47,507 nt of DNA, from positions 1 to 47,507 of the forward strand of contig JAFWTA010000064.1 of the NCBI GenBank assembly GCA_017519145.1. The letters are read 5' to 3'. How positions within the stretch are numbered: the first letter of the stretch is position 1; each line of letters begins with the position of its first letter. A program made the translations under genes and the position numbers. Source of the DNA: Ruminococcus sp. GTDB taxonomy: Bacteria > Bacillota > Clostridia > Oscillospirales > Ruminococcaceae. Below the pieces are notes generated by a model that saw only the letters and a program-made list of their open reading frames with translations, ran no database searches and was not told where the DNA came from. Of this stretch, positions 3,193 through 20,726 are shown piece after piece.

Positions 3193-3245
3193 AATATAAT
3201 AGCATAGTTATGCATAAAAATATCATTCAGAAAGCGGGCGATAAG

Positions 3246-4124
3246 GTGCTTAGAAGTATGACAGGCTACGGAAGAGCGCAGCAGATACTTAACGGACGCG
3301 ATATCCTTGTGGAGATCCGCTCCGTCAATCATAGATATTACGAGTATTCCTCAAGAGTCCCAAGAACCTACAGCTACATCGACGAAAAGCTGAAGGCTCT
3401 GCTGAAGAACGGGATCTCACGAGGCAAGGTCGAGGTATCCGTCACTATAAACAATATCGAGGGAAAGGATACCGAGATCGCCATCAATAAAGGCGCGGCA
3501 GAGGGCTATGTGAACGCTCTCAGAAGCATTGCCGATGAGCTCGGCGTGGAGGACGATATCACCCTTTCAAAGCTCATGAAGCTTCCTGATATCTTCAATA
3601 TACAGAAAACACCCGACGACGAGGAACAGGTCTGGGAGGACGTCTCAAAGGTGGCTTCCGAGGCCATTCAGCGCTTTGTTGAAATGCGTCAGGTGGAGGG
3701 CGAGCGCCTGAAAAAGGACATCACCGAAAAGGCTGAGGGTATCCTCACCATGGTTGGCAGGGTGGAGGAGCTTTCTCCCCTTACCGTGGAAAACTACAGG
3801 AACAGGCTCTACAAGAAGCTCAGCGAGGTCCTTGAGGGCAAGGACATAGACGACCAGAGAGTTCTTACCGAGGCTGCCGTTTTTGCCGAGAAGATCGCTG
3901 TTGACGAGGAGACCGTCCGTCTCAGGAGCCATATCGCTCAGCTGGAGTCAATGATCTCGGGCGACGAGGCAGTGGGAAGAAAGCTGGACTTCATCGTGCA
4001 GGAAATGAACCGCGAGGTAAACACCATCGGTTCAAAGGCTCAGGATCTCAATATCACCAAGGTAGTCGTTGATATGAAGGCTGAGATCGAAAAGATCCGC
4101 GAGCAGATCCAGAATATAGAATAA
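3246..4124 (+). CDS. yicC: YicC/YloC-family endoribonuclease
   Basis: A 292-residue member of the YicC family, which includes stress-associated endoribonucleases. The N-terminal signature RSMTGYGRA and the C-terminal [10 protein letters not shown](K) segment followed by a helical end are both typical. I place the start at GTG 3246, giving [11 protein letters not shown] as in relatives. An in-frame ATG at 3210 would add 12 residues unlike the family and has no better SD. It is the first gene of the long operon, followed four bases later by remA, the same yloC-ylzA-gmk-rpoZ order as in Bacillus subtilis. Family identity is secure; the RNA targets here are unknown. Confidence 0.9.
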
Positions 4125-4128
4125 GCCT

Positions 4129-4386
4129 ATGAAGCTCATTAATATAGGCTACGGAAATATGGTGTCCTCGGAGAGGATAGTCGCCGTTGTAAGCCCCGAA
4201 TCAGCGCCTATAAAGCGCCTCGTTCAGGAGGCGCGCGACGACGGCAGAGCTGTGGACGCCACCTACGGAAGAAAGACAAGAGCCGTTATGATAATGGACA
4301 GCGGTCACATTATCCTGTCCTCGCTCATAACCGAGACTCTTGCGGCAAGGATAAACGGATCGGGAGGTTCTGACGACGATGAATAA
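4129..4386 (+). CDS. remA: RemA-like DUF370 DNA-binding regulator
   Basis: An 85-residue protein of the DUF370/RemA family. In B. subtilis RemA is a DNA-binding activator of biofilm matrix and osmoprotection genes. The N-terminal [17 protein letters not shown] and the central [11 protein letters not shown]...[11 protein letters not shown] segment are characteristic. Length matches the family. It lies between yicC and gmk, overlapping gmk by 8 bases, its usual position in Firmicutes. Whether it controls matrix genes in this organism is not evident, since no matrix operon is present in the window. Confidence 0.9.
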
Positions 4387-4984
4387 GGGCAGACTTATTG
4401 TATTATCCGCTCCCTCGGGCTGCGGAAAAGGTACCATACTTGCGGAGGTGTTCAAGGATCCGCACTTTGCGCTTTCTGTTTCCGCAACTACAAGGGCTCC
4501 CCGAGAGGGCGAAGCGGACGGTGTCAACTACCACTTCCTTACAAGGGAGGACTTCGAGCAGAGGATAGCAGACGGCAAGTTCATCGAGTACGCAGAGTAT
4601 TGTGATAATCTCTACGGAACTCTCATGAGCGAGGTGGACGACCGCCTTGAACAGGGACTCAATGTGGTGCTTGAAATAGAGACCAAGGGTGCTATGAAGG
4701 TCCGCGAAAAGCGTCCCGATGCTATTTTTATATTCGTTCTGCCGCCTTCTGTGGCAGAGCTGAGACGCAGGCTGAAAAAGCGCGGCACAGAGACTGATGA
4801 TGTCATCGAAAAGCGCGTTTCACAGGCTGCATGGGAGATAGAACAGGCTCCCAAATACGATTATGTCATTGTCAACGACGCCCTTGAGGACGCCGTAAGC
4901 GACTTCTTCGCGGTAATGCGCGCAGAAAAGCTTAAAGCGGAGTTTTCGGGCGATATTATAGAAGAGGTGTTGAAAAATGCTTAG
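4379..4984 (+). CDS. gmk: guanylate kinase
   Basis: A 201-residue guanylate kinase (GMP + ATP to GDP + ADP), an essential step in guanine nucleotide supply. The P-loop [10 protein letters not shown] sits at residues 10-19, followed by the GMP-binding [21 protein letters not shown] region and the C-terminal [14 protein letters not shown] typical of the family. In the P-loop the last two residues are Gly-Thr where many homologues have Ser-Thr. The gene overlaps remA and rpoZ by 8 bases each, indicating translational coupling in the operon. Confidence 0.97.
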
Positions 4985-5186
4985 ACCCGCAGTAAACCAG
5001 ATCATCACAAAGAATGAGAGCTGCTATTCGCTCGTTATCGCTGTTGCGAAGCGTGCAAGACAGATCTCCGAGGAGCTCTGCAAGAACAATGAGACCCTTG
5101 AGGAGAAGCCTGTCAAGACAGCTGTTGAGGAGCTCGCAAGCGGCAAGTGCAAGATAGTGAGCGCTGCTCCCCAGACTAACGAGTAA
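4977..5186 (+). CDS. rpoZ: RNA polymerase omega subunit
   Basis: A 69-residue omega subunit that helps assemble RNA polymerase around the beta-prime subunit. The N-terminal MLRPAVNQI and the motif SLVIAVAKRARQISEE are characteristic. The length suits the shorter Firmicutes forms. It follows gmk with an 8-base overlap, and its TAA shares a base with the ATG of priA, the standard gmk-rpoZ-priA arrangement (coaBC, which sits between rpoZ and priA in B. subtilis, is absent here). Confidence 0.93.
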   Translation: MLRPAVNQIITKNESCYSLVIAVAKRARQISEELCKNNETLEEKPVKTAVEELASGKCKIVSAAPQTNE

Positions 5187-7636
5187 TGCCCCTCATTGCG
5201 GAGACCGCAGTCAGCGGAACAGCCTATTCATTCGATATGCTGTTCAGCTATGCAGTCCCCGACAGGCTCGCGGCTGTCATTGCCTGCGGCTGTCGGGTGC
5301 TGGTACCCTTCGGCAGGGGGAACAAACGCAGGATAGGTGTTGTCATGAAGCTCTCACAGGGCGAGGCAAAGGGGCTGAAATCCCTTGTGTCCCTTGTGGA
5401 CGAGACTCCCGTGGTCTCGGAGGAGCTTCTCGGACTTGCCTTCTACCTTCGCGAGCAGACCTTCTGCACTTACTTTGATGCGGTAAAAGCCATGCTTCCG
5501 CCTGCCATGAGCGTCAGCGCAAAAGAGACGTTCAGGCTTGTTAAGAATTTCACGGACATTTCTTCACTCAGTCCTCAGGCGGCTGAGCTGCTTCAGGTGC
5601 TCTCCTGCACCGAGGGCAGCAAGGAGCTCAATGAGGCGGTGGAGAAGCATATCATTGACAACGGAAGGCGGCTCACCGACGAGCTCTGCGACGCAGGCGC
5701 CCTTGACTCGGATAACGTGTTCAGGCAGGCTGTGGGCGACGCGGCAGTGAGAATGGTACGCCTTACGGACAAGTATATGAGCACCCCCGAGGACTTTGAT
5801 CTCACACCCAAGCAGAAGGCTGTTGCGGACTTCCTTGCGGAGTTCGGAGCTGCTGCGGTCAGGGAGGCTGCATATATGTGCGGCGTCACCGAGGCTGTGG
5901 TTAAAAGGCTCTGCGCCAGCGGCGCCGCCGAGGAGTACGAGGCGGAGGTGCTGAGAAGGGTGGAGGACTTCGCCGACGAGGTGAGACGCCCCGAGGATAT
6001 AGTCCTCTCTGCCGAGCAGCAGAGGGCAAGGGACGCGGTATACGAGCAGATGACCACGGGGAAGCCTGCGGTGTTCCTGCTCCACGGCGTTACGGGAAGC
6101 GGCAAGACCTCTGTCTTTGAAAAGCTCATTGACGATACCGTGAAAAGCGGCAGACAGGCTATGCTCCTTATCCCCGAGATAGGACTTACACCGCAGATAC
6201 TGAAACGCTTCAGGTCGATGTTCGGAGAGAGAGTCGCTGTTATTCACAGCGGTCTGTCACTGGGTCAGAGACTTGACGAATACAAGAGAATAAAACGGGG
6301 CGACGCAGACATCGTTATCGGTACGAGAAGCGCCGTTTTCGCGCCCCTTGACAATATAGGACTCATCATCATTGATGAGGAGGGCGAGCGCTCCTACAAG
6401 TCGGACAGCTCACCCAGATATACCACACATGACATCGCCAAGCAGCGCTGTGCCTTTCACGGTGCGTCACTGCTGCTGGCTTCGGCAACTCCTTCCATCG
6501 AGAGCTATTACCTCGCCGAAAGGGGAGCGTACAGGCTCCTTGAGATGAAGGAGAGGTACCGCAATGCGCCGCTGCCCGAGGTGAGCATAGTCGATATGAA
6601 CCTCGAGCGCGGCGAGGGCAACCGCACGGAATTCAGCCGCAGACTGGCTGAGGAGATAAACGCTAACCTGAAAAAGGGAGAGCAGTCCATACTGCTGCTC
6701 AACAGGCGCGGATATCATACCATCATAAGCTGCTGTGACTGCTATCAGCCCGTGTACTGCCCCAACTGTTCGGTGCCGCTGACATATCACAAGAAAAACA
6801 ACAAGCTGATGTGCCACTACTGCGGATACGTCAGCGAACCTGTGACGGTGTGTCCGTCCTGCGGCTCGGAGCGCCTGAAAAATATGGGCTTCGGCACACA
6901 GAAACTGGAGGAGGAGCTGTCTGTGTTCTTCCCCAAGGCGAGAGTGCTCCGCATGGACGCGGATACTACCTTTTCACGTTATTCCTACGAGAAGAACTTC
7001 ACCGACTTCCGCGAGGGAAAGTACGATATAATGATAGGCACCCAGATGATAGGCAAGGGACTCGATTTCCCCAATGTCACTCTGGTAGGTGTGCTGTCTG
7101 TGGATAAGGCGCTGTATGCAGGGGACTTCCGAAGCTATGAGCGCACCTTCTCCCTCATCACTCAGGTGGTGGGACGAGGCGGACGCGGAGGCAGCCGCGG
7201 AAGAGCTATACTCCAGACCTTTATCCCCGAGCATTATATCATGAACCTTGCGGCGGCTCAGGACTACAAGGGCTTCTACAACGAGGAGATAGCCATACGC
7301 CGCGCTATGATATTCCCGCCCCTCTGCGATATGTGCATTTTCTGTTTTTCGGGAAATGAGGACATCACCGTGAGACTGGGCGCGGAGGCTGTGCTGCGGC
7401 TCATGAACGGCAGACTCAGGGAGATACAGCCCAAAACTCCTGTGAGAGTGCTGGGACCCGTCCGCTGCTCATACGGCAGGATAAACGGAAAGTACCGCTA
7501 CCGTATTATAATGAAATGCAAGAACACCGCCGAGATGAGAGGATTTATAAGCGGTATCCTCACAGAGTCGGCAAAACTGAAGGAAATGAGAAATACTTCC
7601 CTGTACGCCGATATGAACGGCGATGTGGGAGTCTGA
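5186..7636 (+). CDS. priA: primosomal replication restart helicase PriA
   Basis: An 816-residue PriA, the 3'-5' helicase that reloads the replisome at stalled forks. An N-terminal fork-binding domain is followed by the Walker A motif HGVTGSGKTS near residue 300, the Walker B IIIDEEGERSYK, and the helicase C lobe with IGTQMIGKGLDF. A zinc-binding insertion holds paired cysteines (CCDCYQPVYCPNC ... MCHYCG ... CPSCGS). The DExH box reads DEEG rather than the usual DEEH. Length is slightly above typical. It sits in the conserved place before def and fmt. Confidence 0.97.
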   Translation: MPLIAETAVSGTAYSFDMLFSYAVPDRLAAVIACGCRVLVPFGRGNKRRIGVVMKLSQGEAKGLKSLVSLVDETPVVSEELLGLAFYLREQTFCTYFDAVKAMLPPAMSVSAKETFRLVKNFTDISSLSPQAAELLQVLSCTEGSKELNEAVEKHIIDNGRRLTDELCDAGALDSDNVFRQAVGDAAVRMVRLTDKYMSTPEDFDLTPKQKAVADFLAEFGAAAVREAAYMCGVTEAVVKRLCASGAAEEYEAEVLRRVEDFADEVRRPEDIVLSAEQQRARDAVYEQMTTGKPAVFLLHGVTGSGKTSVFEKLIDDTVKSGRQAMLLIPEIGLTPQILKRFRSMFGERVAVIHSGLSLGQRLDEYKRIKRGDADIVIGTRSAVFAPLDNIGLIIIDEEGERSYKSDSSPRYTTHDIAKQRCAFHGASLLLASATPSIESYYLAERGAYRLLEMKERYRNAPLPEVSIVDMNLERGEGNRTEFSRRLAEEINANLKKGEQSILLLNRRGYHTIISCCDCYQPVYCPNCSVPLTYHKKNNKLMCHYCGYVSEPVTVCPSCGSERLKNMGFGTQKLEEELSVFFPKARVLRMDADTTFSRYSYEKNFTDFREGKYDIMIGTQMIGKGLDFPNVTLVGVLSVDKALYAGDFRSYERTFSLITQVVGRGGRGGSRGRAILQTFIPEHYIMNLAAAQDYKGFYNEEIAIRRAMIFPPLCDMCIFCFSGNEDITVRLGAEAVLRLMNGRLREIQPKTPVRVLGPVRCSYGRINGKYRYRIIMKCKNTAEMRGFISGILTESAKLKEMRNTSLYADMNGDVGV

Positions 7637-7657
7637 AATGCAAAAGGAATTGATCGA

Positions 7658-8125
7658 ATGGCACTTAGAAGAATTTTAACAGATAAGGACGAGATGCTCC
7701 ACAAGGTCTGCAAGCCTGTGGATAAGTTTGACGAGAAGCTGGCTCAACTCCTCGATGATATGCACGAGACACTCAACAAGGCTGAGGGTGTGGGACTTGC
7801 GGCTCCTCAGATAGGCATCTGCCGCAGGATATTCATCATGCACCTTGACGAAAATGATATCGTCGAGGCTATCAACCCCGAGGTGACTCAGAAGGAGGGC
7901 AAGCAGCGCGTTCAGGAGGGCTGCCTCTCCTGCCCCAATGTATGGGGATACGTCACAAGACCTGCAAGCTGTCACCTGAAGGCTCAGGACAGGAACGGCA
8001 ACTGGTTCGAACGCGATTTTACCGAGCTGGGCGCACAGTGTACCTGCCATGAGAACGACCACCTTGACGGTCATATCTTCACTGAGATAGTGGAGGAATT
8101 CTTTGTTCCCGAGGAGAGCAAGTAA
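7658..8125 (+). CDS. def: peptide deformylase
   Basis: A 155-residue peptide deformylase that removes the formyl group from nascent N-termini. All three metal-site motifs are visible: EGVGLAAPQIG, EGCLSCP and HENDHLDG. The extra Cys in EGCLSCP and the Asn in HENDH are unremarkable variants. The stop overlaps the start of fmt by one base (TAATG), so deformylation and formylation enzymes are co-translated, as in many bacteria. Confidence 0.97.
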   Translation: MALRRILTDKDEMLHKVCKPVDKFDEKLAQLLDDMHETLNKAEGVGLAAPQIGICRRIFIMHLDENDIVEAINPEVTQKEGKQRVQEGCLSCPNVWGYVTRPASCHLKAQDRNGNWFERDFTELGAQCTCHENDHLDGHIFTEIVEEFFVPEESK

Positions 8126-9054
8126 TGAAGATAGTATTTATGGGAACTCCCGATTTTGCCGTTCCGTGCCTGCGTACTCTCGCTGAGAGCGCACATGAGG
8201 TGGCAGCGGTGTTCACCCAGCCCGACAAGCCCAAGGGACGCGGCTATAAGCTCATACCAACTCCCGTAAAGGCTGCGGCGGCTGAATATGATATCCCCGT
8301 GTACCAGCCCCTCTCACTGAGAAAGGGCGAGGACGCAGAGGAGTCCATGAGGGTGCTGAGGGAGACAGCTCCCGACCTCATAGTCGTAACGGCATACGGT
8401 CAGATACTCCCCAAGGAGATACTGGAGCTGCCCAAATACGGCTGTATCAATATCCACGCTTCGCTCCTGCCCAAGTACAGAGGAGCGGCTCCCATAAACT
8501 GGGTGCTCCTCAACGGCGAGAAGGAGACAGGCGTCACCTCGATGCAGATGAGCGAGGGACTTGATACGGGCGATATGCTCATAAAGAAAGCAACTCCCAT
8601 AGGCGAGAACGAGACCTGTGAGGAGCTGTATGCAAGACTTTCCGCAATGGGCGGAGAGGTGCTTGCGGAGACAATAGACGCACTGGAAAAGGGAAGCCTT
8701 TCCCCCGAGGTGCAGGACGACAGCCTGAGCTGCTATTCTCCCATGATACGCAAGGAGATGAGCGCTCTGGATTTCTCAAAGACAGCGGCGGAGGTACACA
8801 ACACCATCCGCGGCGTAACGGGCTTTACTATGCTGGAGGGCAAGCGCCTGAAGGTGTTCGCCTCCCGTATCGCCGAGGGCAGCTTTGACACCGCAGAGAA
8901 CGGCTCTGTGGTGGATACGAAGCGATTCGCGGTAAAGTGCGGCGACGGCAGGGCGGTCATCTTCACCGAGGTACAGCCCGAGGGCAAAAAACGCATGAAA
9001 ACAGAGGACTTTCTCAGAGGCAGGAAGCTCACTGAGGGAGAACTCCTCGGATAA
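8125..9054 (+). CDS. fmt: methionyl-tRNA formyltransferase
   Basis: A 309-residue enzyme that transfers a formyl group from 10-formyl-THF to initiator Met-tRNA. The N-terminal KIVFMGTPDFAVPCL, the folate/catalytic signature SLLPKYRGAAPINW and a C-terminal OB-like domain (KTAAEVHNTIRGV onward) are all present. Length is normal. Translationally coupled to def and followed 12 bases later by a zinc protease gene with its own SD (AAGGAGGAAG). Confidence 0.97.
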   Translation: MKIVFMGTPDFAVPCLRTLAESAHEVAAVFTQPDKPKGRGYKLIPTPVKAAAAEYDIPVYQPLSLRKGEDAEESMRVLRETAPDLIVVTAYGQILPKEILELPKYGCINIHASLLPKYRGAAPINWVLLNGEKETGVTSMQMSEGLDTGDMLIKKATPIGENETCEELYARLSAMGGEVLAETIDALEKGSLSPEVQDDSLSCYSPMIRKEMSALDFSKTAAEVHNTIRGVTGFTMLEGKRLKVFASRIAEGSFDTAENGSVVDTKRFAVKCGDGRAVIFTEVQPEGKKRMKTEDFLRGRKLTEGELLG

Positions 9055-9066
9055 GGAGGAAGATCT

Positions 9067-9828
9067 ATGTATATTATGAATTTCGCAGCAGCAGCTCTGA
9101 GATACTACGGCTATTACGGCTACGGCACACGCTCGGCAGGCGGTAACTACGGTCTGTATCTCATTATCTTCCTTGCCATGATGATACTTCCCATCATTGC
9201 GCAGGTCAATGTAAGCTCAACTTTCAAAAAGTACAGTCAGATAGGCAATGCAAGAGGTCTCACCGCCGATCAGGTGGCAAGAATGATACTCGATGCCAAC
9301 GGTCTGTACAATGTAAGGATAGAACGCATCAGAGGTAATCTCACCGACCACTACGACCCGAGGACAAATGTTGTAAGACTTTCCGATTCGGTATACGGTC
9401 AGCGTTCGGTTGCTGCCATCGGTGTTGCCGCACATGAGTGCGGTCATGCCTGTCAGCACGCCGAGAACTACGCACCCATAATCTGGAGGACAAAGCTGGT
9501 GCCCATCACCAATATCTGCGCAAGGCTCTGGTATTTCGTGCTCATCATCGGTGTGGTGCTCAGCAGCCTTACTATCGGCACTTCGCTGATATATGTCTCC
9601 ATCGCTATGTTCCTTGCTGTTATTTTATTCCAGCTTGTAACACTGCCCTGTGAGTTCAACGCAAGCAGCAGAGCCCTCAAGACTCTTGAAAGAGACAGCA
9701 TCCTTGAGCTCGCTGAGGTGCCTCAGGCTAAGAAGGTCCTTACCGCAGCTGCTCTCACATACGTTACAAGCCTTGTGGTATCCATGCTCCAGCTCCTCAG
9801 ACTCCTTATGTCTGTCAGGAGAAGATAA
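9067..9828 (+). CDS. YugP-family neutral zinc membrane metallopeptidase
   Basis: A 253-residue membrane protein of the YugP-like zinc metallopeptidase family. A Tyr/Gly-rich N-terminus precedes a first membrane helix (LYLIIFLAMMILPIIAQV), and the HExxH zinc motif occurs in GVAAHECGHACQHAE around residue 124. Two more hydrophobic segments (WYFVLIIGVVLSSLTIGTSL and AMFLAVILFQLVTLPC) follow. Substrates of the family are poorly known. It is inserted between fmt and rsmB, an arrangement I associate with clostridia. Its TAA overlaps the ATG of rsmB by one base. Confidence 0.88.
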   Translation: MYIMNFAAAALRYYGYYGYGTRSAGGNYGLYLIIFLAMMILPIIAQVNVSSTFKKYSQIGNARGLTADQVARMILDANGLYNVRIERIRGNLTDHYDPRTNVVRLSDSVYGQRSVAAIGVAAHECGHACQHAENYAPIIWRTKLVPITNICARLWYFVLIIGVVLSSLTIGTSLIYVSIAMFLAVILFQLVTLPCEFNASSRALKTLERDSILELAEVPQAKKVLTAAALTYVTSLVVSMLQLLRLLMSVRRR

Positions 9829-11120
9829 TGGGGGATGCAAGATACCTTGCTGTGAAGCTGCTGGATAAGACCTTCGGCAGCGGCAGCTATTCAAATCTTC
9901 AGCTGGACAGCGGCCTGAAAAACTCGGACCTTGACGACAGGGAAAAGAAGCTCTGCTCCGCTATCTACTACGGAGTCATAGAGCGGAAGCTGACCCTCGA
10001 CCACATCATCGGCGGCCTCAGCTCCCGTCCCATAGCGAAACTCGACAGTATCATCCTGAATATACTGCGCTGCGGTATATATCAGATAATGTATATGGAC
10101 AGCGTTCCCGATAACGCGGCTGTCAGCGAGAGCGTTTCCCTTGCGAAGAAATTCCGCAAGACAAGCGCTTCGGGTATGGTCAACGCGGTGCTGCGGAGCT
10201 TCATCCGCGGCGGCAGGGAGATAAAGCTCCCGAAAGACAGGGAAAAGGCAATGTCCGTTAAGTACTCCGCGCCTGCGGCTCTGGTAAGGAGCCTCAGCTC
10301 GGACTACGGCAGTGAGGCGGCAGAAAAATTTCTTGCGGCTTCGCTTGAAAAAAGTGTCACATATCTCCGCATGAATGCGATTAGATGTACTGAGGAAGAA
10401 TTTCTCGGGGCTCTTGAGGGATTCGGAGCCGAAAAAATCGCGGACTGCTGCTTTAAGACAAGCGGCGGCGATGCAGCGGCGACGGAAGCCTTCCGCAAGG
10501 GCTGGTTCCACGTTCAGGGACTTGCCTCGCAGCTTTGCTGTCAGGCAGTGGCTCCCACAGAGGAGGACAGGGTGCTGGATATATGCGCCGCCCCCGGCGG
10601 AAAGACCTTCACTATGGCGGAGCTCATGGGCGGCAAGGGCGAGATATACGCCTTCGACCTCCACGAAAAGCGCGCGGAGCTGATCCGCAGGGGTGCCGAG
10701 AGACTGGGTCTCACCAACATCAGGGCAGCGGCAGGAGACGCAACCAAGTTCAACGGTGCGCTGCCAAAGTTCACAAAGATACTCTGCGATGTCCCGTGCT
10801 CGGGACTGGGAGTCATCGGCAGCAAGCCCGAGATAAAATACAAGGACATCTCGGATTTTGCGGGACTCCCCGACATACAATATAAAATAGTGTGCAATGC
10901 GCTGAACTATCTCGAAGCAGGCGGCACTCTGGTCTATTCCACCTGTACGGTGAGAAAGGCTGAGAATGAGGAGGTCTGCGAGAGACTGCTCCGCGAGCAT
11001 CCCGAGGTGGAGGCTGTGGAGCTGCCGCCTATGCTGGGCAGGAGCTTCGGCACTATGGCTACACTTATGCCGCCTGATTTCGGCAGCGGCTTCTTTATAG
11101 CAAAATTCAGGAAAAAGTAA
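9828..11120 (+). CDS. rsmB: 16S rRNA m5C967 methyltransferase
   Basis: A 430-residue RsmB/Sun-type SAM-dependent methyltransferase. The N-terminal third resembles the NusB-like RNA-binding domain that RsmB carries (DREKKLCSAIYYGVIERKLTLDHII). The catalytic domain has the SAM motif DICAAPGGKTF, the PCSGLG catalytic Cys motif and the second Cys in VYSTCTVRKAENE. Length is normal. It sits directly before rlmN, as in B. subtilis. Confidence 0.95.
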   Translation: MGDARYLAVKLLDKTFGSGSYSNLQLDSGLKNSDLDDREKKLCSAIYYGVIERKLTLDHIIGGLSSRPIAKLDSIILNILRCGIYQIMYMDSVPDNAAVSESVSLAKKFRKTSASGMVNAVLRSFIRGGREIKLPKDREKAMSVKYSAPAALVRSLSSDYGSEAAEKFLAASLEKSVTYLRMNAIRCTEEEFLGALEGFGAEKIADCCFKTSGGDAAATEAFRKGWFHVQGLASQLCCQAVAPTEEDRVLDICAAPGGKTFTMAELMGGKGEIYAFDLHEKRAELIRRGAERLGLTNIRAAAGDATKFNGALPKFTKILCDVPCSGLGVIGSKPEIKYKDISDFAGLPDIQYKIVCNALNYLEAGGTLVYSTCTVRKAENEEVCERLLREHPEVEAVELPPMLGRSFGTMATLMPPDFGSGFFIAKFRKK

Positions 11121-11129
11121 GGTGATAAA

Positions 11130-12188
11130 TTGGAAAAAGTCGATATCCTCAGTCTCGATCTTGAAGAACTGACAGAAGCCCTTCTGGCTATGGGCGAGAA
11201 AAAATTCCGCGCGAAGCAGATATTCCAGTGGCTTCATATTAAAAGAGTCTTCGATTTCGATAAAATGACTGATATATCTGTCCAATTGCGCAGTGCTTTG
11301 AAAGAAAAATTTTGTATAAATGGACTATTTATACAGAAAAAGCTTGAATCTGCTATAGATAATACGGTAAAATATCTTTATAGGCTTTCTGACGGGAATT
11401 TTGTCGAGACTGTGCTCATGGAGTACAGCTACGGCTACAGCATATGTGTGTCCACTCAGGTGGGCTGCAAAATGGGCTGTAATTTCTGTGCCTCGACCAT
11501 CGCAGGCTACGTCAGAAATCTTGCTGCCTCGGAGATCCTTATGCAGATCTACGAGGCCGAGCGTGATTCAGGAAAAAAAGTTTCGGGAGTTGTGCTTATG
11601 GGTATAGGCGAGCCCCTCGATAACTTCGGCAACGTCATGAAGTTCCTCGATCTGCTGTCCCACAAGGACGGCAACGATATGAGCCTTCGTCATGTGTCGC
11701 TTTCCACCTGCGGAATAGTTCCGCGGATCTACGAGCTGGCTGACAAAAAGCTCCAGCTTACCCTTTCGGTGTCCCTCCACTGTGCGGACAACGAGGGGCG
11801 CAGCAGAATCATGCCCGTAAACAGAAAATATGATATCGGCAGTCTTATGGAAGCCTGCCGGTACTATATAGATAAGACGGGACGGCGCATTACCTTTGAG
11901 TACGCCGTTATCGACAACGTCAATTCATCACCTGCGGACGCCGACACTCTTGCGGCCCTCCTCCGCGGTATGAACTGCCATGTGAACCTTATTCCCGTCA
12001 ATAAGGTCAGGGAACGAAATTATCGGACAGTCCGCTCGGGTGTTGCTGAATTCGCGAAGCAGCTGGGCAGACGGGGGATAAATGCTACCGTGAGAAGAAC
12101 TCTCGGAAGCGATATCGAAGCTGCGTGCGGTCAGCTCAGACGTGACGCGGCTGAACAGAACAAAAAGAATGGGGGTGCGGATACTTGA
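11130..12188 (+). CDS. rlmN: dual-specificity 23S rRNA/tRNA m2A methyltransferase
   Basis: A 352-residue radical SAM enzyme methylating A2503 of 23S rRNA and A37 of some tRNAs. The CxxxCxxC cluster is in GCKMGCNFCAST. VVLMGIGEPLDNF and the C-terminal Cys in SDIEAACGQLR, which acts with the resolving Cys, are present. The start is TTG, preceded by AAGGTGAT. The N-terminal section near 11250-11400 is visibly more A/T-rich than its neighbours, though the reading frame and family match are intact. The end overlaps the TTG start of prpC by four bases. Confidence 0.95.
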   Translation: MEKVDILSLDLEELTEALLAMGEKKFRAKQIFQWLHIKRVFDFDKMTDISVQLRSALKEKFCINGLFIQKKLESAIDNTVKYLYRLSDGNFVETVLMEYSYGYSICVSTQVGCKMGCNFCASTIAGYVRNLAASEILMQIYEAERDSGKKVSGVVLMGIGEPLDNFGNVMKFLDLLSHKDGNDMSLRHVSLSTCGIVPRIYELADKKLQLTLSVSLHCADNEGRSRIMPVNRKYDIGSLMEACRYYIDKTGRRITFEYAVIDNVNSSPADADTLAALLRGMNCHVNLIPVNKVRERNYRTVRSGVAEFAKQLGRRGINATVRRTLGSDIEAACGQLRRDAAEQNKKNGGADT

Positions 12189-12910
12189 GATTTCGCTTTG
12201 GCACGGATATCGGTCTTAAACGCGAGGAAAATCAGGACGCGGTAAGATGCGAATACTTCGGCCACAATGTTCTCGCCGTCGTGTGTGACGGCATGGGGGG
12301 CGAACGCGCAGGCAAGGAAGCAAGTGCGCTCGCGATAGAAGAATTCTTTCAGCGTTTTTCGGCTGACTATAAGGAAAGTCTCAGTGATGAGGATATCCGC
12401 AAGCTCCTTATCTCCTCGATATCGGCAGCAAATTCCGTGATCTATACACGGGCGAGATTCGACTTCAAGAATTTCGGCATGGGCACCACCTGCGTAGCTG
12501 CCTTCGTCAACAAAAAAACAGCCTTCATTGCCAATGTCGGTGACAGCAGAGCCTATCTCATCACCGATACGGGACTTGTTAAGATCACAACTGACCACAA
12601 TGTCGCCTCGGTGCTCTATGAACAGGGCAAGATAACCGAGGAGGAAATGGAGGTACACCCTCAGAAGCATATGCTCGTGAGAGCGGTCGGTGTCGAAAAG
12701 ACCGTCCTGACGGACACATTTATGCTGGACTATGAGGACAAGATCAGTCTGCTGCTTTGCTCGGACGGCCTTTCGGGCTACTGCGGCGACGATGAAATAT
12801 ACAGCGTCATACTGAATTCCGATTTTGATGATGTTGCAGACGAACTTATTAAATTAGCGCTCCGCAAGGGCGGCCGCGATAATGTGACTGTCGCGGTAAT
12901 TTCTGACTAA
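12185..12910 (+). CDS. prpC: PP2C-type serine/threonine phosphatase (PrpC/Stp)
   Basis: A 241-residue manganese-dependent PP2C phosphatase, expected to reverse phosphorylation by the PASTA kinase encoded next door. Motifs in order: D8 in the N-terminal FGTDIGLKREENQDA, CDGMGGERAGKEAS, ANVGDSRAYL, LLLCSDGLSGY and the C-terminal GGRDNVTVAVI. The start is TTG, overlapping the rlmN stop by four bases. The prpC-prkC-rsgA order is conserved in Firmicutes, where the pair tunes cell-wall growth, ribosome GTPases and dormancy exit. Confidence 0.95.
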   Translation: MRFRFGTDIGLKREENQDAVRCEYFGHNVLAVVCDGMGGERAGKEASALAIEEFFQRFSADYKESLSDEDIRKLLISSISAANSVIYTRARFDFKNFGMGTTCVAAFVNKKTAFIANVGDSRAYLITDTGLVKITTDHNVASVLYEQGKITEEEMEVHPQKHMLVRAVGVEKTVLTDTFMLDYEDKISLLLCSDGLSGYCGDDEIYSVILNSDFDDVADELIKLALRKGGRDNVTVAVISD

Positions 12911-12926: not shown

Positions 12927-15305
12927 ATGGATAAGAATATTGGCAAAAAGCTCGACGGAAGATATGAGATAACCGAGCTTATCGGCGTCGGAGGCATGGC
13001 TGAAGTGTACAAGGGCGTCGATGTTATCGACAACAAAACCGTTGCCATTAAGATACTGAAGAAGGAATTCGCTGAGAACGAGGAGTTCCTGCGCCGCTTC
13101 AGAAATGAATCCAAGGCAATTGCAGTTCTTTCCCACCCGAATATCGTAAAGATATACGATGTGGGCTTCTCCGAGAAGATACAGTATATCGTTATGGAGT
13201 ACATCGACGGTATCACGCTGAAGGAGTACATCGAGGAGGAAAAGGTCCTCACATGGAAGGATACGGTGCATTTCGTCATCCAGATCCTCCGCGCTCTCCA
13301 GCACGCTCACGATAAGGGCATCGTTCACCGCGATATAAAGCCCCAGAACATCATGATGTTCACGGACGGCACTATCAAGGTCATGGACTTCGGTATCGCC
13401 AAGTTCGCCCGTGAGGAAGGCAAGACCGCTACCGATCAGGCCATCGGAAGCGTTCACTATATCAGCCCCGAGCAGGCAAGCGGCAATGTTACCGACGCAA
13501 AGAGCGATATCTACTCCGTGGGAGCTATGATGTATGAGATGCTCACAGGAAGAAAGCCCTTCGACAGCGATAACCCCGTTGCTATCGCAGTTATGCATAT
13601 GCACGATATCCCCGAGCGCCCCAGAGCTATCAACCCCGATATCCCTGACGGCCTTGAGGAAATAGTCCTCAGAGCTATGGAAAAGGCTCCCGAGGACAGA
13701 TACCAGACCACAGCCGAGATGATAAGCGATATCGAAGCCTTCAAGGCTGATCCCCATATCACCTTCGGTTACTATACAGAGGACGACGAGGACGCTAACG
13801 ATGAGATCCTCGACCAGTCCGCAGGCACAGAGGTACAGTCAGAGAGCCGTCAGGAGGTGGCTAATGCCTATGCCGCAAAGGCTGCTTCAGCAGTCGGTGC
13901 AGGCGCAGGTGCAGCTGCTATGGCAGCCGGCAGCGGTTCCTCAGCAGGTGCTGTATCACAGAGATACAACGACGCTTATCCCGAGGATTATGGCGAGGAT
14001 TACGACGATGAGGACGATGAGGAAGAGGAGGAGCGCTCGTCACTGGTTGTCCCTGTTCTTACCGCTGTTGTCGTGGTCGTTATCATCGTTGCTGTTATCT
14101 TCGTGGTAACTCTCCTCAGCGGACTCATAAGGAACAGCGGCAACAGAGGCGACAAGTCAATGCCCGATCTCTACGGCTGGGACTATCAGCAGGCTCTTTC
14201 CGCTTACGGAAATACCATCAAGTTCGAGGTAGAGGGTACCGAGTACAACGAGGCTGACCCCAATACCATCATCAAGCAGAGCATTGAGCCCGGAGATGTG
14301 TTCAGCAAGGGCGATGTCTGCAAGGTAACTCTCAGTATGGGTATGGAGACTGTGGAAGTTCCCCGTGTAAAGGACCTCAATGTTGAGCTTGCCAAGGCTC
14401 AGCTCACCGAGCGAGGCATCGTGGCGGATATACGAAAACAATCCGACGCAAATGTCAAACCCAATTACGTTATCAAGTCTGAGCCCGAGGAGGGTACGGA
14501 AGTACACAAGGGTTCAACTGTTATACTCTACGTCAGCATGGGCGCTAACGCAGAGCAGTTCGAGATGGAGGACTATGTTGGTCTTACTATCGACGACGCT
14601 ACAATGAGAGCAGGCTATAAGAACCTGAAGGTCGAGACAGAGCTTATCCCCTCATATGAGAAGAAGGATAAGGTCGTAGAGCAGGATCCTCCCAAGGGCA
14701 CAAAGATCGAGGGCGGTTCTTCCATCAAGCTCTATGTCAGCGACGGTACTATCCCCGACGGTAAGGTGGATATCACCATTCCGCTTCCTTCGGACGCAAA
14801 CGGACGATTCAGCATCGACTTCATCCTCACAGACGAAAAGGGCAAGACCACAGCACAGTCCTCAGGAAATATCATTTGTCCTGATATGAGCAGTGTTCCC
14901 ATGACCCTTGACGGCTCGGGACAGAACGTATCGGTAAGAGCACGTCTTACAAACCTCAGCACACAGCAGAACGCAGTTCTCGGAACATACACCTTTAACT
15001 TCGCAACAGGCAAGTACACCACAAACTCCGAGGATATCTACGGTGCATTCCAGGCAGTAAACGGATTCCCGCAGCCTGAGACCGATCCTCCGACGGATCC
15101 TCCTCAGCCTGAGCCTACACAGAATCAGGAGCCTCAGAACGACCATCAGGAAGGCGTAAACGGATTTACCTATTCCGACGGCAACTGGTGGTACTATACA
15201 GATGCAGACCACGTTCTCGGCGAATGGGTAAACGGCGCATGGGTATTATATCAGCCCGGCACTAACGGTTACTGGGACGAGAATAATCAGTGGCACTGGA
15301 ACTGA
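12927..15305 (+). CDS. prkC: PASTA-domain membrane serine/threonine kinase (PrkC/Stk)
   Basis: A 792-residue transmembrane kinase. The kinase domain spans about 12-275 (Gly-rich loop GVGGMAEVYKG, catalytic Lys in VAIKIL, HRDIKPQN, DFGIAKF, GSVHYISPEQ). An acidic, low-complexity juxtamembrane stretch precedes one membrane helix near 372-395. Three PASTA repeats follow at about 412-610, for sensing muropeptides or lipid II. A beta-rich region and a Pro/Gln-rich spacer lead to a Trp/Tyr-rich tail at about 745-792 (for example GNWWYYTDADHVLGEW), which standard PrkC proteins lack. The SD AGGAGGAAAGG is strong. Its stop overlaps the rsgA start (TGATG). Confidence 0.95.
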   Translation: MDKNIGKKLDGRYEITELIGVGGMAEVYKGVDVIDNKTVAIKILKKEFAENEEFLRRFRNESKAIAVLSHPNIVKIYDVGFSEKIQYIVMEYIDGITLKEYIEEEKVLTWKDTVHFVIQILRALQHAHDKGIVHRDIKPQNIMMFTDGTIKVMDFGIAKFAREEGKTATDQAIGSVHYISPEQASGNVTDAKSDIYSVGAMMYEMLTGRKPFDSDNPVAIAVMHMHDIPERPRAINPDIPDGLEEIVLRAMEKAPEDRYQTTAEMISDIEAFKADPHITFGYYTEDDEDANDEILDQSAGTEVQSESRQEVANAYAAKAASAVGAGAGAAAMAAGSGSSAGAVSQRYNDAYPEDYGEDYDDEDDEEEEERSSLVVPVLTAVVVVVIIVAVIFVVTLLSGLIRNSGNRGDKSMPDLYGWDYQQALSAYGNTIKFEVEGTEYNEADPNTIIKQSIEPGDVFSKGDVCKVTLSMGMETVEVPRVKDLNVELAKAQLTERGIVADIRKQSDANVKPNYVIKSEPEEGTEVHKGSTVILYVSMGANAEQFEMEDYVGLTIDDATMRAGYKNLKVETELIPSYEKKDKVVEQDPPKGTKIEGGSSIKLYVSDGTIPDGKVDITIPLPSDANGRFSIDFILTDEKGKTTAQSSGNIICPDMSSVPMTLDGSGQNVSVRARLTNLSTQQNAVLGTYTFNFATGKYTTNSEDIYGAFQAVNGFPQPETDPPTDPPQPEPTQNQEPQNDHQEGVNGFTYSDGNWWYYTDADHVLGEWVNGAWVLYQPGTNGYWDENNQWHWN

Positions 15306-16180
15306 TGTCAGACAAGTACAGCGGACTTATAATAAAATGCTTAGGGGGACTCTACACAGTAGAGTCCCCTGACGGTATATGCGAGTGCAAGGCAAGAGGA
15401 GTTTTCCGCAACAGAGGTATCAGTCCGTGCGTGGGAGACAACGTCACCATCGAGGACGACGTCATCACAGAGATAGCTCCGCGCAAAAACTGTATCATTC
15501 GACCTCCTCTCGCCAATCTTGACCAGCTCATTTTCATCGTCTCGACCTGTGAGCCTGCCCCTAATTACCTCATTCTGGACAAGTTCATCGCCATTGCCGA
15601 GTACAAGGGCATAACCCCTGTGGTGGTCATCACCAAGGCTGACCTCGGCGACAGCCGTCCCGTCCATGAGATTTACGGCGGTATCGGCATAGAGGTGGCA
15701 GAGGTGAACTACGGCGACGATGACTCCGTGGAGACTGTACGGCAGCTCCTCAGGGGGAAAATAAGCGCCTTTACGGGAAATTCGGGCGCAGGCAAGTCCA
15801 CACTGCTCAACGCAGTTGACCCGTCGCTGAATATCGCTACGGGTGAGATAAGCCGCAAGCTGGGCAGAGGCAGACATACCACACGCCATGCGGAGCTCTA
15901 TAAGCTCAGCGGCGGCGGTTATATCGCTGATACCCCGGGCTTTTCCACATTTGAGACAAACAGATACGACATTATCCGCAAGGAGGAGCTTGCAGGCTGT
16001 TTCCGCGAGTTCGCTCCCTTTACGGAGGACTGCCGTTTCAGAGACTGCGCACACCTCTGCGAAAAGGGCTGTGCCGTAGTTGAGGCGGTTGAGCGCGGAG
16101 AGATCTCCCGCAGCCGCCACGAAAGCTACAAGACTATGTATGAAGAAGCTAAACAGCTGAAGGAGTGGGAGCTGAAATGA
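15305..16180 (+). CDS. rsgA: ribosome small-subunit GTPase RsgA
   Basis: A 291-residue circularly permuted GTPase aiding 30S maturation. An N-terminal OB fold (GLIIKCLGGLYTVES) precedes G4 (VITKADLGD), G1 (FTGNSGAGKSTLLNAV), G3 (DTPGFSTFE) and a C-terminal zinc knuckle with CRFRDCAHLCEKGC. I start at ATG 15305, overlapping the prkC stop, because MSDKYSGLIIKC matches the family. An in-frame ATG at 15290 lies inside prkC. RsgA homologues are known substrates of PrkC-type kinases, which fits its position. Confidence 0.95.
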   Translation: MSDKYSGLIIKCLGGLYTVESPDGICECKARGVFRNRGISPCVGDNVTIEDDVITEIAPRKNCIIRPPLANLDQLIFIVSTCEPAPNYLILDKFIAIAEYKGITPVVVITKADLGDSRPVHEIYGGIGIEVAEVNYGDDDSVETVRQLLRGKISAFTGNSGAGKSTLLNAVDPSLNIATGEISRKLGRGRHTTRHAELYKLSGGGYIADTPGFSTFETNRYDIIRKEELAGCFREFAPFTEDCRFRDCAHLCEKGCAVVEAVERGEISRSRHESYKTMYEEAKQLKEWELK

Positions 16181-16827
16181 ACAGATGCGCCATATTTGCA
16201 GGCGGCGATATGCCCGACCTGAATGAGTATAAGGACTCTTCCTTCTGGACAAGGTACAGCTATTTCATCTGTGCCGACTGCGGCTACAGACACGCAGTAA
16301 AGCTGGGGATACTCCCTGATCTGATAGTGGGAGATTTCGATTCCTACGGCGAGGAGCTGCCTATGGGAGTCGAGGTGTTCAGAAGCGTACCCGAAAAGGA
16401 CGACACCGATACCCTCATGGCAGTAAAAAAAGCCATCGAGCTGGGCTTTACCAATATCGACCTTTACGGAGCTCTCGGCGGCAGCCGTCCCGAGCACAGC
16501 TTCGCCAATATCCAGACTATGATTTACGCCCTTCAGCAGGGATGCAGCCTTGAGATACAGGGCAGCAGCAGAATGCTGGTGCAGGAGGCTGACGAGGGCG
16601 AGGTCACATACAAGTGCCCCGAGGGCGGCTTGTATCTCTCTGTGTTTGCGCTCACCGAGAGCGTGGGTATAGAGTACCTCCGCGGCGTCAAGTACCCCCT
16701 TGAGGATTACCGCATGGTGCAGTCATTCCCCATAGGCGTCAGCAACGAGATAACAGGCAGCGAGGCTTTCCTCCGCATTAAGGACGGTCTTGCCCTTGTG
16801 ATACTGACTCCAAAAAAGGAGAAGTAA
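16177..16827 (+). CDS. thiN: thiamine pyrophosphokinase
   Basis: A 216-residue enzyme that makes thiamine diphosphate from thiamine and ATP. Visible motifs are FAGGDMPD, CADCGYRHAVKLGI, LIVGDFDSYGE, PEKDDTDTLMAVKKAI and GALGGSRPEHSFANI. I place the start at ATG 16177, overlapping the rsgA stop, with AAGGAG at 16160-16165. A GTG at 16165 would add four residues and sit on the SD. No TPP riboswitch precedes it; it is simply an operon member, as in the Bacillus rsgA-rpe-thiN-spoVM order (rpe is missing here). Confidence 0.94.
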   Translation: MNRCAIFAGGDMPDLNEYKDSSFWTRYSYFICADCGYRHAVKLGILPDLIVGDFDSYGEELPMGVEVFRSVPEKDDTDTLMAVKKAIELGFTNIDLYGALGGSRPEHSFANIQTMIYALQQGCSLEIQGSSRMLVQEADEGEVTYKCPEGGLYLSVFALTESVGIEYLRGVKYPLEDYRMVQSFPIGVSNEITGSEAFLRIKDGLALVILTPKKEK

Positions 16828-16833
16828 CAAAAG

Positions 16834-16872
16834 CTCCTCTGATGAATATAATATTATAGTTCATCAAAGGAG
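16834..16872 (+). promoter_or_regulatory. hairpin pairing the spoVM ribosome binding site
   Basis: CTCCTCTGATGAA (16834-16846) and TTCATCAAAGGAG (16860-16872) form a 13-bp stem with one C-A mismatch around a 13-nt AT-rich loop. The right arm contains the AAAGGAG core of the spoVM SD, so the fold would hide it. A GGGAG just outside the stem remains available. The loop includes TATAAT, which could alternatively be a -10 element. Seen in sequence; a regulatory role is inference. Confidence 0.6.
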
Positions 16873-16882
16873 GGAGTACATA

Positions 16883-16966
16883 TTGAAGATAGTTGTCATA
16901 AGGAGCCCTAAGTTCATCTCGGGGCTGCTGAGAGCCATTTTCGGCATCAAAAAAGAAGAAGCATAA
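16883..16966 (+). CDS. spoVM: stage V sporulation protein SpoVM
   Basis: A 27-residue protein, too short for routine gene calls. It starts at TTG with SD AAAGGAGGG. The N-terminal part reads MKIVVIRSPKFISGLLRAIF and ends GIKKEEA. B. subtilis SpoVM is a 26-residue amphipathic helix that marks the convex forespore membrane and anchors SpoIVA. Shared features are the start MK, Pro at position 9 followed by Lys-Phe, Gly14, Arg17-Ala18, Gly21 and the charged tail. Position supports the call: thiN-spoVM is the B. subtilis order. A terminator follows at once. The identification is strong; whether this organism sporulates is unknown from this window. Confidence 0.88.
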   Translation: MKIVVIRSPKFISGLLRAIFGIKKEEA

Positions 16967-16970
16967 GTGA

Positions 16971-17004
16971 AAAGCCCCTGAGCGATGAACTCAGGGGCTT
17001 TTTT
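16971..17004. terminator. bidirectional terminator between spoVM and the APVLDD protein gene
   Basis: AAAGCCCCTGAG and CTCAGGGGCTTT make a perfect 12-bp stem with a 7-nt loop. T-runs follow in both directions (TTTTTT on plus, TTTT on minus), fitting convergent genes on either side. It closes the 13.7-kb yicC-spoVM operon. Confidence 0.92.
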
Positions 17005-17054
17005 GGCTAAGATAAATCAGATTTTTGCTTTTCAATATTCTGATTTGAGCTTAA

Positions 17055-18239
17055 TTAAGAGTGTCTTGAATTGATGTCCTTGTTCCTGTTGAAGAAGTTG
17101 CCTACGTCTTCGCTTCCGCAGAGCAGGAAGAAGCATACGACGGTGCATATAAGCGATACGCCGTAGAGTGCTCCTGCCAGTACCATGCTGCCCTTGTGCT
17201 GGGGTATCATGGTAAGTCCCGGGAACACCTGTATTATACCGAACAGCAGCAGTACAAATGTGGCAAGCGACTTGCAGACGCCCACGCCTGTCATGAGCAG
17301 CAGCGAGAACAGTGCAACTGCAACTGCAATGTATATCGCAGAGCCTTCGATGACTCCGCTGAAGCCGTCAAGTCCGTTCTTGTAGCCCAGTCCGAGCTGT
17401 CCGGAATAGAGCAGGAAGAATGCAACAGCTGCCACAACGCCCAGAAGTCCGATGATTATGGTGACCTTGAAGCCCTTCTTGGCGCTTTCCTGCCTTGCCT
17501 GCTCCTTCAGCTCAAGCATCATTCGCAGGCTCTCCTTTGCGTCCTTCTGCTCGGATACCAGCTGCGAGGAAACTGCCTTCTTGGCTGCCTCTGCCTTTGC
17601 TCTTTCAAGGTCCTCGTCAACGTACTTTGCCTGATACTTGGGGAGCTCGGGCTCCTCGTCAAGTATGGGCGCGGTTATGGGTGCCTCGGGCTGCTTTGGC
17701 TCTTCCTTTTTCGGGGGAGGAGTGTAATTGTCCTCGTCAAGCACGGGAGCCTTTATTTCAACAGGAGGAGCTACTGCGCCAAGCTGAGTTCTTCTCATGT
17801 CGATTATCTGCTGCTGCTTTTCGGGAGGCAGTGCATCAAATCTCTCCTTCAGCTCGGGGGTGAGTCCGCCGATTATATCCTCGTCGGAGAGCACCAACTT
17901 GTCATGGGTGTAGGGAACATTGTCGTCCAGCACAGGTGCGGTAACTCCCGAGGGAGCGCCCTTTCTCTCACTTGTGTAGGACATATCATCGTCAAGGACC
18001 GGTGCGGTAACACCTGTTGGAGCACCCTTCTTTGCGCTGCCCTGAGTGTAGCTGTCCATATCGTCCAGTACGGGAGCAGAAACGCCTGTGGGACCGTCCT
18101 TTTTCGACGATGGCGCAACATACTCAAAATCGTCCAGTACAGGAGCGGAAACTCCCGTGGGACCTTCTTTTTTCGGAGTGCTCGGGGTATAGTCTATCTC
18201 CTCGGGCAGTCCGCCTGCGGGATTGTTTTCATCGTACAT
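17055..18239 (-). CDS. four-helix membrane protein with APVLDD-repeat N-terminal tail
   Basis: A 394-residue protein of no family I recognise. The N-terminal 200 residues look disordered and carry four near-identical units of the form GPTGVSAPVLDD or GAPTGVTAPVLDD, spaced 20-25 residues, then two degenerate ones (IKAPVLDED, ITAPILDEE). Between them, TPELKERFDALPPEKQQQII looks helical. A charged helix near 200-250 may be a coiled coil. Four membrane helices fill the C-terminus (for example VTIIIGLLGVVAAVAFFLLY). There is no signal peptide, so the tail is probably cytoplasmic. I use ATG 18239 (SD GAGGTG) over an upstream TTG at 18257. It follows two dockerin genes in one probable operon. Confidence 0.8.
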   Translation of the reverse strand: MYDENNPAGGLPEEIDYTPSTPKKEGPTGVSAPVLDDFEYVAPSSKKDGPTGVSAPVLDDMDSYTQGSAKKGAPTGVTAPVLDDDMSYTSERKGAPSGVTAPVLDDNVPYTHDKLVLSDEDIIGGLTPELKERFDALPPEKQQQIIDMRRTQLGAVAPPVEIKAPVLDEDNYTPPPKKEEPKQPEAPITAPILDEEPELPKYQAKYVDEDLERAKAEAAKKAVSSQLVSEQKDAKESLRMMLELKEQARQESAKKGFKVTIIIGLLGVVAAVAFFLLYSGQLGLGYKNGLDGFSGVIEGSAIYIAVAVALFSLLLMTGVGVCKSLATFVLLLFGIIQVFPGLTMIPQHKGSMVLAGALYGVSLICTVVCFFLLCGSEDVGNFFNRNKDINSRHS

Positions 18240-20660: not shown

Positions 20661-20693
20661 GGTACTACCTCCTATCGCATCATTATAAACGAA

Positions 20694-20711
20694 CAGCCGC
20701 CGAAGCGGCTG
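20694..20711 (-). terminator. UUCG tetraloop hairpin after purA
   Basis: On the minus strand CAGCCGC-TTCG-GCGGCTG is a perfect 7-bp stem with a UUCG tetraloop, 16 bases after the purA stop. Only a weak T-rich tail (TTCGTTTAT) follows, so termination may be partial. A TATAAT sequence immediately downstream (about 20683-20688) could serve as a -10 for the dockerin genes. Confidence 0.6.
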
Positions 20712-20726
20712 AACGATCATATTCTT

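Follow-up and report, generated by a model that had tools for sequence, protein, structure and literature searches.

The window analysed here, a stretch of 47,507 nucleotides from Ruminococcus sp. taken at its full length, raises the question of how a developmental gene can be carried as the last gene of a growth operon without leaky expression. The gene is spoVM, and rumen cellulolytic ruminococci are usually described as non-sporing.

spoVM as the last gene of a housekeeping operon

The operon in the window runs in the order yicC, gmk, priA, def, fmt, an unmatched gene, rsmB, rlmN, prpC, prkC, rsgA, thiN and spoVM (Table 1). The product of the last ORF is MKIVVIRSPKFISGLLRAIFGIKKEEA, with the start codon read as M, and it matched NCBIfam NF033436 (SpoVM_broad) over model positions 1–26 of 26 with 54.9 bits against a cut-off of 31, while Pfam returned no family for the same ORF up to an E-value of 1. 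Judged by its sequence, the ORF is SpoVM, and the gene itself is ordinary: it shares with the family the length, the full-length match, residues Pro9 and Arg17, the position after thiN and a SpoIVA in the same genome, and it differs in its TTG start, the function being a prediction. SpoVM is a small spore-coat protein that attaches to the curved membrane of the forespore and brings in its partner SpoIVA. The original prediction that spoVM closes the yicC–thiN operon is thus borne out by the full-length match, by the two residues and by the end of thiN at 16827, and the 27-codon frame proved to be conserved in relatives, SpoVM being present in 119 of 125 genomes of the genus. The start codons at 116 loci, in a first script count, were ATG in 76, TTG in 20, GTG in 17, ACG in 2 and CTG in 1; the expected start is ACG in two genomes and CTG in one (L050, L109 and L117). 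The product of thiN is 95% identical to ThiN of Ruminococcus flavefaciens SAb67 (L188), which assigns the window to R. flavefaciens or a close relative of it. The unmatched gene between fmt and rsmB (9067–9828, + strand) had no NCBIfam match at an E-value of 1e-30.

A consensus scan for terminators gave three matches against 4.8 expected, with a weak terminator-like match inside thiN (16615–16627) and none between thiN and spoVM. The intrinsic terminator past spoVM was identified by folding and is absent from the output of that scan. Because no convincing terminator precedes spoVM, the vegetative read-through mRNA of the housekeeping operon should contain it. The next large ORF past spoVM lies on the − strand, and in B. 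subtilis the gene after spoVM is rpmB. Farther on, 18254–19432 and 19461–20720 on the − strand encode two adjacent secreted-looking proteins with C-terminal repeats, which we take to be dockerin-like (GDVNGDGTVDSVDAS...).

Table 1. Positions of the operon genes and of the elements around spoVM in the window
Feature	Position	Strand	Evidence or remark
yicC, gmk, priA, def, fmt, one unmatched gene, rsmB, rlmN	3210..12188	+	upstream operon genes
prpC, PP2C phosphatase	12185..12910	+	NF033484
prkC, PASTA Ser/Thr kinase	12927..15305	+	NF033483
rsgA	15290..16180	+	TIGR00157
thiN, thiamine diphosphokinase	16177..16827	+	TIGR01378, 124.7 bits; final vegetative gene ahead of spoVM
−35-like GTAACA	16824..16829	+	overlaps thiN stop codon (16825–16827); 17 nt ahead of TATAAT
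Hairpin 5′ arm	16834..16847	+	fold, arm-swap test, compensatory changes; mismatch at 16839
Mother-cell-type −10 TGAATATAAT	16843..16852	+	found without mismatch in 88 of the 119 genus genomes
Predicted mother-cell transcript start	16858..16860	+	predicted from −10 position (6–8 nt downstream)
Hairpin 3′ arm	16859..16872	+	contains most of the Shine–Dalgarno sequence; fold, arm-swap test, compensatory changes
Shine–Dalgarno sequence AAGGAGGG	16867..16874	+	sequence
spoVM	16883..16966	+	27 codons, TTG start; NF033436, 54.9 bits
Intrinsic terminator past spoVM	16970..17002	+	fold: 13-bp stem, −21.5 kcal/mol, T-rich end

The gene had been predicted to lie in a non-sporing lineage, a premise that fails at the gene level. 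Spo0A of the same genome exceeds its cut-off, SpoIVA is encoded here (G000:C15, E-value = 4.6e-213) as in 122 of the 125 genus genomes, SigE is above both of its models and SigK above one of two. SigG reaches the cut-off of NF006071 and stays below that of TIGR02850 (one of two equivalog models), the best-scoring SigF candidate is under its cut-off, and so are SpoIIR (147 bits, cut-off 151.9) and SpoIIID (102.3 bits, cut-off 111.5); from these matches SigG, SigF and SpoIIR are likely present. Across the genus, SpoIIR was found in 113 of 125 genomes (46 of these above cut-off) and SpoIIID in 114 (24 above cut-off). In the available part of a 2012 survey, several genes including spoIIR are tabulated against R. 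albus 7 among non-sporogenous strains (PMC3533761). By homology, sporulation genes are widespread in the genus at the gene level. Since its own genome carries core sporulation genes, spoVM is no lone relic, and what is informative about the retained gene is not its mere presence, as had been suggested, but the arrangement of promoter and hairpin in front of it.

In several genus genomes spoIIID is split, the N-terminal part ending in ...FGISKSTVH and the C-terminal part beginning with ...VHKDVSERL. In four genomes (G053, G078, G006 and G072; L425–L430) a single contig carries both parts, separated by 10–26 kb, and in G113, G091, G102, G031 and G115 the parts are on separate contigs. A recombinase-like ORF lies 12, 26, 60 or 1,799 nt from one of the parts, and the one checked in Pfam, that of L425, matched Resolvase, Recombinase and Zn-ribbon. 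The split resembles the sigK skin element; a list of interrupted sporulation genes, in the available text of PMC10747680, is without spoIIID. In G005 (L431, L432) there is an intact spoIIID and a second copy of the C-terminal part about 22 kb off on the same strand, with a recombinase-like ORF 1.8 kb away from this copy, as though an element had carried in, or retained, a spoIIID 3′ end that belongs to it.

Predicted pairing of the Shine–Dalgarno sequence with an upstream arm

In the hairpin, 16834–16838 pair with 16868–16872 and 16840–16847 with 16859–16866, giving 13 pairs with a single C/A mismatch (16839/16867), and the AAGGAG of the Shine–Dalgarno sequence (SD) lies within or beside the 3′ arm. 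The minimum free energy of 16828–16882 was −16.3 kcal/mol (z = −4.9, none of 200 shuffles as stable), and two longer stretches gave z = −2.6 and −4.2, their stability being reached by 2 and by 0 of 200 shuffles, respectively. The fold agrees with the predicted hairpin of 13 pairs and one mismatch covering the SD; the TATAAT (16847–16852), which had been placed in the loop, does occupy the loop, and also the weak top of the stem. An Rfam search of 16500–17200 gave nothing at the gathering threshold.

Pairing across the genus was analyzed between two arms, one of 21 nt that closes with the first three bases of the −10 and the other reaching from the −10 as far as the start codon, in 117 of the 119 loci (L071 and L109 were left out). 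Among 38 representatives less than 70% identical in the arm, the own arms paired at −12.0 kcal/mol and permuted arms at −8.83 ± 0.36 kcal/mol, and none of 100,000 permutations, a null that does not entirely remove relatedness, reached the own value. The test was rerun with 20,000 permutations, and further thresholds that left 14 and 6 representatives returned z = −5.2 and −3.2. The control segment 27 nt farther upstream showed no pairing excess (z = −0.5), and the 5′ arm against the first 30 coding nucleotides a slight excess over permuted sequences (z = −2.3).

The arms also changed together. With registers taken as the best for each genome, which favours structure in a way that slid controls leave in place, the commonest register (32 sequences) had a covariation score of 0.435 (0.190 shuffled, at most 0.243 slid), changes on both sides in 11 of 13 pairs (7.8 shuffled) and 64 both-side-change cells (20.9 shuffled, at most 23 slid); in the next register (22 sequences), chosen in the same way, the values were 0.427 (0.222 shuffled, at most 0.244 slid), 11 of 13 (7.3 shuffled) and 41 (17.1 shuffled, at most 22 slid). 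Such pairing could arise as a by-product where the promoter spacer, rich in pyrimidines, faces the purine-rich SD, and in this respect the swapped arms still reach −8.8 kcal/mol and a slight excess is also seen at spoIIIAA (19 representatives, z = −2.5, p = 0.009). However, own arms pair much better than swapped ones and both-side changes exceed the shuffled values in each register, and we regard a by-product as very unlikely. The repeat is moreover palindromic and overlaps the promoter, as would a DNA operator over the −10 that forms no RNA hairpin. The letters of an operator should stay fixed, whereas the arm sequences vary among species and stay complementary; because the letters vary while the pairing persists, an RNA element is expected rather than a protein-binding site, and the operator reading is hardly probable. 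On this comparative evidence the hairpin is an RNA element conserved in the genus, with arms that change in step, and the covariation of the stem in relatives that the original prediction left to be sought was found, in the arm swap as in both pairing registers.

A weak hairpin (above −10 kcal/mol) occurs in 22 of 107 rows of a tree that was used for this count alone, its rows being upstream ORF fragments, not all of them ThiN, with 12 of the 119 loci left out. In L026, L027, L034, L087 and L099 the distance from the −10 to the 3′ arm is longer, and the arms still look complementary by eye (computed for L027 and L087).

ThiN homology was found upstream of spoVM in 104 of the 119 genomes and not found in 15, one of which (L054) has its upstream region cut by the contig end. 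The hairpin median was −14.6 in 102 thiN-linked and −9.1 in the 15 unlinked genomes (p = 7e-5), and divergent representatives (32 vs. 6) gave p = 0.04, a comparison confounded by unlinked genomes that are partly related, many with shorter leaders and some with another co-directional upstream gene. Five of the 15 unlinked genomes still pair at −12.9 or better, and the −10 keeps its final T in 14 and G(A/C)ATA in all 15. The weaker hairpin away from thiN is, within this confounding, compatible with a device against read-through.

Promoter elements in the hairpin and the proposed switch

The −10 lies inside the hairpin, its first bases being shared with the 5′ arm and the remainder lying in the stem top and the loop. 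G(A/C)(A/G)TA is kept in 117 of 119 spoVM loci, and in 117 of the 119 TATAAT is preceded by a G followed by A or C, a count whose scoring favoured that pattern. A matrix (PWM) was seeded with a consensus and trained on the regions upstream of spoIIIAA and spoIIID in the genus, with spoIID left out; it had its best site at the same −10 in 115 of the 119 loci, 83 beyond the 95th percentile of shuffled sequence. The −35 columns at fixed distance are conserved as well (G 66, T 66, A 79 or C 21, A 81, C 82 and A 75% of 117), and the spacing between the two elements is nearly constant (17 nt in 90, 18 in 21 and 16 in 6 of 117, as the best choice among 16–18).

Read as a sigma-70 site, GTAACA-17-TATAAT in the window matches at 10 of 12 positions, with a perfect TATAAT and a spacer of 17, and TTGACA is matched at four of six positions in 73 of 117 genomes. 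The promoter might then be a vegetative sigma-A promoter, from which spoVM would be made constantly at a low level, with the hairpin merely tuning its output. Against this, the best −35 begins with TTG in none of the 117 genomes, the third base of the hexamer at the fixed position is A or C and never G (n = 117), and the bases before TATAAT, under the scoring noted above, and the agreement with the spoIIIAA/spoIIID matrix speak against it too; we consider a sigma-A promoter improbable.

The sigma-E −10 consensus is similar to CATAYAMT. The spoVM −10, (A/C)ATATAAT, fits this consensus, and the same type is found at spoIIIAA, spoIIID and sipL. An example of a C. difficile sigma-E −10 in the available text of PMC3789822 is CATATATA. 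The portions available of two further papers give sipL, spoIVA and spoVM as sigma-E genes in C. difficile (PMC5607322) and spoVM as sigma-E controlled in B. subtilis (PMC517825). Of 20 genomes of the genus, 7, the own genome among them, carry an exact GAATATAAT upstream of sipL–spoIVA, and a GAATA-type −10 was chosen in 16 of 20. The upstream stretches of spoIVA showed no clear promoter by eye because spoIVA follows sipL, and those of spoIID showed no clear motif by eye. The yqfC loci, whose matches were weak, were not used as a comparison set.

The position of the −35 suits sigma-E, but its core is ACA, where spoIIIAA and sipL have ATA or TA. The ACA core resembles the −35 of sigma-K, so sigma-E is likely and sigma-K is also a candidate. 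A promoter of sigma-K, late in the mother cell, or of sigma-E with SpoIIID would leave the role of the hairpin unchanged, and the available texts assign a −35 AC with a −10 CATATAAT to sigma-K at C. difficile sigK P2 (PMC3789822) and describe SpoIIID as required for B. subtilis spoVM (PMC5607322). However, GTAACAT also stands upstream of spoIIID in L284 and L287, spoIIID being sigma-E controlled in C. difficile according to the same available text (PMC3789822), and sipL–spoIVA carries the same −10 type. Control by sigma-K or by sigma-E with SpoIIID appears rather unlikely.

With sigma-E as the preferred factor, the two elements may work as one switch. In the long read-through mRNA the 5′ arm would pair with the SD, and translation would be blocked. 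In sporulating cells transcription would start at the internal promoter, with its −35 over the thiN stop codon and its −10 in the hairpin top, under a mother-cell sigma factor that is most likely sigma-E. The short transcript would begin at the foot of the 3′ arm and lack the 5′ arm, leaving the ribosome site open, so that the promoter switch would double as a translation switch. The predicted unpaired fraction of the SD in the window was 0.20 in the long RNA, 0.74 in the short RNA and 0.44 with the 5′ arm shuffled; the means were 0.25, 0.55 and 0.41 in 117 genomes, and 0.32, 0.59 and 0.40 in the 38 representatives (p = 0.008 for long vs. shuffled and 6e-6 for long vs. short). In the short RNA the SD is thus merely 55% unpaired on average, and only 39 of 117 genomes passed both strict limits (below 0.3 unpaired in the long RNA and above 0.5 in the short).

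A hairpin that hides the SD on read-through, together with a sporulation promoter that frees it, is the best model for these data, and we think it likely to be right. spoVM would then probably be translated mainly during spore formation. The original prediction had offered a translationally quiet gene or an internal promoter; in silico both find support, and they would combine into one device.

Related arrangements and meaning

The arm swap was also applied to other sporulation genes. For spoIIID it gave z = −4.1 in a first set (12 representatives) and z = −3.8 (p = 0.00025) in a wider set of 20 representatives, in which 44 of 45 loci were kept, L415 being left out and the −10 of L398 looking misplaced. 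A pairing energy of at least −12 kcal/mol in strength was reached by about 20 of the 44 loci, including one whose −10 is doubtful. As judged from these predicted pairings, spoIIID is a patchy form of the promoter-in-hairpin arrangement. For sipL there was no hairpin excess (10 representatives, p = 0.25; 3 of 20 starts look wrong and were retained). In the spoIIID leaders L279, L281, L282, L284, L285, L286 and L288 (own genome), the −10 is in the loop of an SD-covering hairpin (−15.8 to −21.1 kcal/mol). Translation of spoIIID in B. subtilis is usd-dependent.

A search of the own genome for the pattern of −10 plus SD returned 40 matches against 6 in a reversed control. Thirty of these pattern loci yielded 11 rows with an ORF start, among which only spoVM beat every one of its 200 shuffles; in absolute terms the pairing is stronger than that of spoVM in L368 (p = 0.015) and in L359 (p = 0.085). 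The comparison beyond the genus comprised 30 family loci from 148 genomes, 28 of them located, 3 of these within the genus. A −10-like site is occasionally present at the family loci outside the genus (e.g., L255 and L268), and no SD-covering hairpin was seen there by eye. Tentatively, promoter-in-loop hairpins may be a recurring insulator of sporulation genes in Ruminococcus (spoVM, often spoIIID), a generalization that we put forward as possible rather than probable. If it is true, transcription and translation of mother-cell genes would be switched jointly by one short, fast-evolving stretch.

Comparable devices are known. For B. subtilis sigG, a hairpin of 20+ bp was proposed to block translation of spoIIG read-through, and it is unable to fold in transcripts that begin at the sigG promoter, as described in the available part of PMC5942855. 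To the extent of that description, the spoVM arrangement is alike in that a sporulation gene lies downstream of another operon and the hairpin would be restricted to the read-through mRNA; it differs in the gene, in the sigma factor (sigma-F/G at sigG) and in the upstream operon, which is spoIIGA-sigE at sigG and housekeeping at spoVM. In phage T4, the SD and/or start codon of e, soc, 49 and I-TevI lies in a helix of the long early mRNA, and the late-promoter mRNA of gene e, without the 5′ portion, is translated well (100-fold by experiment; PMC3014915). The T4 case concerns phage late promoters and was tested experimentally, whereas the switch at spoVM is in silico only. It is a well-supported reading that the spoVM arrangement would join the mechanism class of T4 gene e and B. 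subtilis sigG, a mechanism already known. A search of the literature on SD sequestration, read-through and spoVM, with most subscription journals outside its coverage, found no report of this at spoVM.

The arrangement suggests how a developmental gene can form the tail of a growth operon and yet not leak; the co-variation is strong over many genomes, and the proposal is testable with simple reporters. Rumen cellulolytic ruminococci appear to keep a conserved and apparently selected control element of sporulation, which suggests that their sporulation programme is in use now or was so recently.
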